NCBI GenBank assembly: GCA_040220875.1
Contig: JAVJVX010000006.1
Coordinates: 460,174-524,173 of the forward strand
Reading direction: 5' to 3'
Length of the DNA: 64,000 bases
DNA from: Alphaproteobacteria bacterium
GTDB lineage: Bacteria; Pseudomonadota; Alphaproteobacteria; JAVJVX01
Shown here: piece after piece, positions 60,208 through 62,481 of the stretch
Layout: every line of letters begins with the position of its first letter
Position numbering within the stretch: position 1 is the first letter of the stretch
Notes under the pieces: generated by a model
Seen by the model: the letters and a program-made list of their open reading frames with translations, nothing else
Database searches by the model: none
Told to the model about the DNA's origin: nothing
Made by a program: the position numbers and the translations under genes

Positions 60208-61026
60208 TCACGAGATCCGCCCGGCGCGCCGGTCGTAAAGCTGCAGGATCGCGGCGGCCGTTTCCTCGATCGAGCGCCGCGTCACATCGAGAATGGGCCA
60301 CTTGTTCTGCAGGCAGATTTTACGCGCGAAGGCCAGTTCCGCCTTGATTCGCTCCGGGTCGGCATAGCCGGTATCCTCGGACTCGTTGAGCATGCGCAGC
60401 CGGTTGCGCCGAAGCTGGACCAGCCGCTCCGCGCTTTCGGTCAGTCCCACGATCAACGGTCTTTTGAGCTGGAAGAGAATCTCCGGCAAGGGCACCTCGG
60501 GGACGATCGGAATATTCGCTGCCTTGTACCCGCGATTGGCGAGATAGATGCACGTTGGCGTTTTCGACGTGCGCGACACGCCGAGAAGCACGATATCGGC
60601 GTTCTCGAGATCCTTGGAAACCTGGCCGTCATCATGGCTCATGACGTAATTCATCGCATCCATGCGGGTGAAATACTCCGCATCCAGCACATGCTGGCGG
60701 CCGGGTTCGGCCCGGCTCTGCCGCCCGAAATACCGGGTCAGTTCGGCCAGGACCGGCTCCAGGACGGAGATGCACGGAATCTGTATGTCGCGGCATTTGC
60801 TTTCGAGATACTGGCGCAGATTCTCGTCCACGAAGGTGAACATGACCACACCGGGATTGGTCGCTATTCCCTGGACGACCCGCTCGAGCTGGCCGCGCGT
60901 GCGGACCAATGACCAGACATGCTCGATGGGCTCCACCCCTTCGAACTGAACGAGGCAGGCGCGCGCGACGCTCTTGATCGTCTCGCCAGTTGCGTCGCTT
61001 ACCAGATGGAGGTGGAAATTGGCCAC
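60208..61026 (-). CDS. ppsR: Pyruvate phosphate dikinase/PEP synthase regulatory protein (DUF299, kinase-pyrophosphorylase)
   Basis: Bifunctional kinase and phosphorylase that switches pyruvate phosphate dikinase or PEP synthase off and on. 272 residues: FHLHLVSDATGETIKSVARA, then the P-loop-like LLGVSRTSKTPTCIYLANRGYKAANIPIVPE, and PLIVGLTESAERLVQLRRNRL. These are the DUF299 hallmarks. Homologues of this gene are the first gene beside the replication origin in Caulobacter and Rickettsia. ATG 61026 borders the probable oriC. Confidence 0.93.
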   Translation of the reverse strand: MANFHLHLVSDATGETIKSVARACLVQFEGVEPIEHVWSLVRTRGQLERVVQGIATNPGVVMFTFVDENLRQYLESKCRDIQIPCISVLEPVLAELTRYFGRQSRAEPGRQHVLDAEYFTRMDAMNYVMSHDDGQVSKDLENADIVLLGVSRTSKTPTCIYLANRGYKAANIPIVPEVPLPEILFQLKRPLIVGLTESAERLVQLRRNRLRMLNESEDTGYADPERIKAELAFARKICLQNKWPILDVTRRSIEETAAAILQLYDRRAGRIS

Positions 61027-61122
61027 GTGCAGGACCCTCGTAAACTGCCGCCCGGCCCTGTCCGGCCGGATATGATCAGGGAAAATACCGCGGGATAACC
61101 TGCCATGAAAGCGCCCGGGATT

Positions 61123-61131
61123 TGTGGATAA
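61123..61131 (-). promoter_or_regulatory. DnaA box (perfect)
   Basis: TGTGGATAA on the plus strand, i.e. TTATCCACA on the minus strand, an exact match to the high-affinity DnaA box. It lies 97 bp from the DUF299 start. Confidence 0.88.
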
Positions 61132-61257
61132 ACCCGGCCGGAAAATAAAATGCCCGTTTCACACCCGTCTTTGTTGCCCCCGCCGTGTGACTGCCCGCAT
61201 CTTTGCGCTTTCATCCCCCACCCCTGAATCACGGGGGAACCCTGCCGGGCAGCCGGG

Positions 61258-61273
61258 ATAATCGGCCGATTAT
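61258..61273. other. 16-bp palindrome in the origin region
   Basis: ATAATCGGCCGATTAT is perfectly self-complementary. It lies between the two best DnaA boxes. The binding protein, if any, is unknown. Confidence 0.7.
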
Positions 61274-61308
61274 GATCCGTATCCGGGCCCGGCGGGTAAA
61301 ACCAATCA

Positions 61309-61317
61309 TGGGGATAA
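61309..61317 (-). promoter_or_regulatory. DnaA box (one mismatch)
   Basis: TGGGGATAA on the plus strand differs from the DnaA box complement TGTGGATAA at one base. It abuts the AT-rich stretch. Weaker two-mismatch sites occur at 61342-61350 (GTTTTCACA, plus orientation) and 61416-61424 (CGCGGATAA). Confidence 0.6.
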
Positions 61318-61446
61318 AACCGAGATAAAAAAGGATTCCCGGTTTTCACAGGGATTCACTACCTACAACCACCTTTTCTTTATTAAGGGAAGTATAGGAT
61401 AAGTGCACGGGACAGCGCGGATAAGCGTTCGGCCGGCGGAGCCCGA

Positions 61447-62481
61447 ATGACGACAAAACCTCTCCTCGACGTGCTTGGCGGAAACGTTCCGGAAACGCCG
61501 CCGGTCTGGCTGATGCGCCAGGCCGGGCGCTACCTGCCGGAATACCGCGCGGTACGCGAAAAGGCCGGTGATTTTCTCTCGCTCTGCTTTTCGCCCGATT
61601 TCGCGACCAAGGTCACCCTCCAGCCGATCCGGCGGTATGGCTTCGATGCCGCGATCCTGTTTTCGGACATTCTGGTAATTCCGCACGGTCTCGGCCAGAA
61701 GGTTGCCTTCCGGCAGGGCGAGGGTCCGGTGCTGGAAGCGCTTGGCGGCGCGCCGGATCTGGACCGGCTGAATGTGACAGGGGTGAGCGAGCGTCTGGCG
61801 CCGGTCTACGAGGCGGTCGGGCGAATCAGGCGGGCCCTCCCCGCCGGGGTCGCGCTTATCGGCTTTGCCGGCGCTCCCTGGACGGTTGCGAGCTATATGG
61901 TGGAAGGGGGAACCAGCCGCAATTTCACCCGGGTGCGCGACTGGTCGATCCGGGCGCCCGACAGTTTTGGCAAGCTCATCGGGATCATCAGCGAGGCAAC
62001 GCTCGAGCACCTCTCGGCCCAGGTCGAGGCTGGCGCCGAGGTGATACAGATTTTCGATTCCTGGTCGGGCATTCTGGACGATGAAGGGTTCGGGCGCTGG
62101 GTGAGCGGTGCGACGCGCGATCTCGTCGCGGCGCTCCGTCGACGCCATCCGGATGTGCCGGTGATCGGGTTTCCGCGCGGCGCCGGGCTGCGCTACGGGG
62201 CCTACCTGCGCGAGACCGGCGTGACGGGGGTGAGCCTCGATCCCGGCGTGCCACTCGATTACGCGCGGGACAATCTGGCCCCCCTGGCGGTGCTTCAGGG
62301 CAATCTGGATCCGCGCCGTCTCGCGGCTGGTGGCGAGGCGCTGGCGGGCGCGGTCGGTCGGATCAAAACGGCCTTCAATGGGCTGCCGTATATTTTCAAT
62401 CTCGGGCACGGAATCGAGCCCGATACCGAGCCCGAGCATGTGGCCGAACTCGTTCGTCTGGTCAGGGAGGGATCACGATGA
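61447..62481 (+). CDS. hemE: Uroporphyrinogen decarboxylase
   Basis: Converts uroporphyrinogen III to coproporphyrinogen III. 344 residues: TPPVWLMRQAGRYLPEYRAV (Arg cluster of the active site), AAILFSDILVIPHGLG (catalytic Asp), GFAGAPWTVASYMVEGG, QIFDSWSG and ILNLGHG-type FNLGHGIEPDTEPEHV. GGAG lies 7 nt upstream. It is the first gene rightward of the probable oriC, as in Caulobacter. The stop overlaps hemH by four bases. Confidence 0.97.
   Translation: MTTKPLLDVLGGNVPETPPVWLMRQAGRYLPEYRAVREKAGDFLSLCFSPDFATKVTLQPIRRYGFDAAILFSDILVIPHGLGQKVAFRQGEGPVLEALGGAPDLDRLNVTGVSERLAPVYEAVGRIRRALPAGVALIGFAGAPWTVASYMVEGGTSRNFTRVRDWSIRAPDSFGKLIGIISEATLEHLSAQVEAGAEVIQIFDSWSGILDDEGFGRWVSGATRDLVAALRRRHPDVPVIGFPRGAGLRYGAYLRETGVTGVSLDPGVPLDYARDNLAPLAVLQGNLDPRRLAAGGEALAGAVGRIKTAFNGLPYIFNLGHGIEPDTEPEHVAELVRLVREGSR

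Follow-up and report, generated by a model that had tools for sequence, protein, structure and literature searches.

The gap between ppsR and hemE in this alphaproteobacterial genome is almost certainly its single chromosomal origin of replication, predicted to work through DnaA boxes, an unwinding element and nearby parS sites. We analysed a 64-kb window (contig C6, positions 460174-524173) of a 2.54-Mb genome that is assembled in nine contigs. Here a gene-free gap of 420 bp (61027-61446) separates two divergent genes assigned by family match: ppsR on the minus strand to the left (60208-61026; PF03618, Kinase-PPPase) and hemE on the plus strand to the right (61447-62481; PF01208, uroporphyrinogen decarboxylase). 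DUF299 is the older name of PF03618, now Kinase-PPPase (PpsR), and COG1806 denotes the same boundary gene. The initial annotation had described this gap, the genes diverging on both sides of it and the leftward order ppsR-maf-aroE-coaE-dnaQ, all of which we find as described; rightward, hemE-hemH is followed by a frame resembling hemJ (identified by eye alone) and then rho. No RNA genes were found in the 64-kb window, gap included, and the sole longer open reading frame in the gap (60999-61349, minus strand) has no family match and was rejected as a hidden protein gene.

The cluster of DnaA boxes in the gap exceeds chance. Two boxes with at most one mismatch are present where 0.07 would be expected, both on the minus strand and both already noted in the initial annotation: a perfect box (TTATCCACA, 61123-61131) and a one-mismatch box (TTATCCCCA, 61309-61317). 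Of two further two-mismatch sites listed there, one is present, as a putative site on the minus strand (TTATCCGCG, 61416-61424), and the second was not found. The same list missed three weak, putative box-like sites with a TTATCC core and three mismatches, again on the minus strand, at 61090-61098 (TTATCCCGC), 61253-61261 (TTATCCCGG) and 61394-61402 (TTATCCTAT, bordering the AT-rich stretch). Altogether the gap holds six TTATCC cores, every one on the minus strand, against 0.21 expected in shuffled sequence and a genomic background of 0.10 per 420 bp (337 in 1.39 Mb); a Poisson estimate puts the probability of a six-core cluster at about 1e-9 per stretch. The presence of just a single perfect box and a single near-perfect one counts against reading the gap as an origin. 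A DnaA-trio motif was sought by eye in the gap, and no clear run was seen.

The perfect word TTATCCACA occurs four times in the genome and is thus rarer than its reversed control word, which occurs nine times. The three other copies lie at the centres of loci L001, L002 and L004, the first of which has further box-like words (TTATTCACA and GTGTGGATA) near its perfect box; possibly these copies mark DnaA-controlled genes or DnaA-titration sites. A TTATCC cluster at the start of contig C3 was set aside as coincidence, its sequence reading as 23S rRNA. At the beginning of that contig (C3:1-4400), the apparent terminal part of a 23S rRNA gene precedes two genes resembling phage-type integrases, which were identified by eye alone.

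The gap is also conspicuous for its base composition, with a GC content of 56% compared with 66% for the window. It contains both the least stable 100 bp (61297-61396) and the least stable 60 bp (61343-61402) of the 64 kb, and the latter, towards hemE, is probably the DNA unwinding element. The hand count of 61 A/T in the 100 bp at 61301-61400 made for the initial annotation is exact, and this is the sole place in the window that reaches at least 58 A/T per 100. Unwinding elements are said to sit beside, and not within, the box cluster (PMC4285127), whereas the AT-rich stretch here is flanked on both sides by box-like sites; the cores at 61394 and 61416 may therefore not be real DnaA boxes. 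A match to the IHF consensus WATCAN5WTR (AATCATGGGGATA, 61304-61316, plus strand) overlaps the one-mismatch DnaA box at 61309 and may be due to chance: the relatives lend it no support, their gaps containing five such matches against 4.5 expected. Three GANTC sites do lie at 61226, 61334 and 61353, as first annotated, but as evidence they fall short, the expectation being about 1.4 and the excess not significant (6 against 2.7 when both strands are counted per palindrome). Pooled over the relatives' gaps, GANTC is found at about twice the expected number.

The arrangement recurs in related bacteria. Among genomes of the class, 250 of 385 carry ppsR, and in a sample of 52 loci, which is biased because it consists of best matches, hemE and ppsR diverge across 324-896 bp in 49; in the remaining three, all belonging to the weakest matches, the available stretch showed no hemE. 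No words are more enriched in these 49 gaps than those of the DnaA box, with 15 copies of TTATCCACA against 0.1 expected, 17 of TTATCCCCA against 0.2 (the variant recurs in 14 of the 49) and 89 of TTATCC against 9.9, the last present in 39 gaps. Because the gap studied here exceeds 48 of the 49 relatives in its number of TTATCC cores, the earlier suggestion of a simpler architecture with few boxes is poorly founded. This genome is the sole member of its order in the comparison set, which includes no close relative that can be aligned with it.

The gap lies at C6:521 kb, near the end of its contig. Contig C6 ends 5 kb to the right of the gap, and its last 66 bases are an exact overlap with the start of the reverse complement of the right end of contig C5; the overlap falls inside one quinone-oxidoreductase-like reading frame that continues across both contigs. 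The joined order is hemE, hemH, hemJ, rho, ..., mnmE, mnmG, rsmG, parA, parB, in which all genes but hemE, hemH, rho and parB were named by reading the sequences. Two perfect parS sites lie beside parAB, at distances of 11.2 and 13.4 kb; parS is thus near hemE and not near dnaA. At C1:1-5459 an mnmG-rsmG-parA-parB segment occurs again, likewise with two perfect parS sites; its sequence is unlike the chromosomal one, and it probably derives from another alphaproteobacterium, a piece of whose DNA was binned into this genome.

GC skew, measured on 1.39 Mb of genome stretches, changes sign around the gap. To the left, on C6, 18 of 19 stretches have negative skew, the exception being the final 10 kb; to the right, on C5 read outward, 16 of 17 have positive skew (Mann-Whitney p 9e-7). 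The initial annotation had proposed that a distant skew minimum, such as one at dnaA, would speak against an origin here; the minimum lies 13 kb away (13.3 kb, in 380 contiguous kb of cumulative skew). Because the skew is weak, with an amplitude of about 1.4%, it places the origin only loosely by itself, and the bootstrap 5-95% range of the minimum runs from -26 to +150 kb. In one complete relative (G012) the skew changes sign within about 150 kb of the hemE-ppsR gap, but 20 kb on one side is already of the other sign, so there too skew is only loosely supportive.

This looseness leaves room for an origin at some other point within about 15-150 kb, for instance closer to parS or to the contig junction, with the box cluster serving DnaA titration or transcription control. 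We consider such an arrangement very improbable, since no other 420 bp in the 1.39 Mb sampled exceeds three TTATCC cores, the gap contains the least stable DNA of its 64 kb and its location is that of the experimentally mapped Caulobacter origin (PMC1914354).

The gap might instead do no more than carry the divergent promoters of ppsR and hemE. Promoters are expected between divergent genes, and the true origin would then lie at dnaA, since oriC adjoins dnaA in many bacteria. This, too, is very unlikely: dnaA, at C6:412 kb, is 109 kb to the left of the gap, within the negative-skew arm, and the intervening DNA keeps a negative skew throughout (averaging -17.9 per 2 kb, SE 5.6), which rules out an origin at dnaA, while parS is near hemE, the box enrichment is far above background and a scan of the gap for promoters and terminators, itself weak evidence, found nothing, including no sigma-70-like promoter.

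The opposite switch in skew lies on contig C9, where the cumulative curve peaks at 31.4 kb. A dif-like 28-mer (TTGTCGCATAATATATATTATGACAATT, C9:26101-26128), recognized by the form described in PMC2731167, is the sole dif-like site in the sampled DNA and lies 5 kb from this maximum; it probably marks the replication terminus. If C9 continues into C5, the two arms measure about 1.30 and 1.22 Mb. We infer this continuation because skew is negative on both contigs; their shared end is only 94 bp long and 90% identical, and the remaining contig order is partly inferred as well. Together with the skew, the synteny, parABS, the dif-like site and the box enrichment in relatives, each independent support, uphold the original reading of the gap as a chromosomal oriC.

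Initiation generally proceeds from strong to weak DnaA sites, followed by opening of AT-rich DNA and helicase loading. At the ppsR-hemE gap, DnaA, which in this genome has a normal DNA-binding domain with a GGRDHTTVMHA motif, would bind at 61123 (the strong box) and at 61309, with co-operative binding to the weaker TTATCC-core sites, which lie on that same strand. The resulting oligomer could then melt the AT-rich DNA around 61343-61402; helicase would be loaded there and two forks would depart, and ParB at the two parS sites, 11-13 kb away, would segregate the copied origins. Which sites DnaA occupies in the gap, in what order it binds them and exactly where the duplex opens are predicted here from established knowledge of origins.

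Placing an origin and a probable terminus in the sole genome of its order compared here could help in ordering its contigs and in estimating growth rate from coverage. More broadly, the class strongly conserves the hemE-ppsR location, and origins that have CtrA sites are exceptional.

The origin is of a known alphaproteobacterial kind and is ordinary in that sense; its location is not new. The divergent flanks, box cluster, AT-rich stretch, skew switch and nearby parABS assign it to the hemE-COG1806 type. It shares its location with Cori, the experimentally mapped origin of Caulobacter crescentus (PMC1914354), which has five CtrA sites, moderate G-boxes (TGATCCACA) and weak W-boxes (PMC4468827, PMC4285127). 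Unlike Cori, the gap has neither a TTAA-N7-TTAA CtrA site nor a G-box, which sets it outside the CtrA-controlled Cori subtype, and it does have one full-consensus TTATCCACA. The lack of a paired CtrA site had been pointed out in the initial annotation, yet it is the usual state among relatives, only three of the 49 gaps having strict CtrA pairs. The genome does encode ctrA (77% identity) and a ccrM-like gene, both identities being approximate. The predicted origin of Rickettsia prowazekii has the same hemE and COG1806 boundary genes (PMC1914354), but CtrA sites are reported there and none was found here. With one consensus box and five weaker TTATCC sites in the same direction, initiation might be timed by DnaA affinity alone and not by CtrA as in Caulobacter, a tentative idea that we regard as somewhat doubtful. 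The same divergent gene pair bounds the 49 alphaproteobacterial gaps, including those of Pelagibius marinus and Kiloniellaceae metagenome-assembled genomes, but whereas all but one of these relatives have zero to four TTATCC cores, the origin predicted here has six, all in one orientation.
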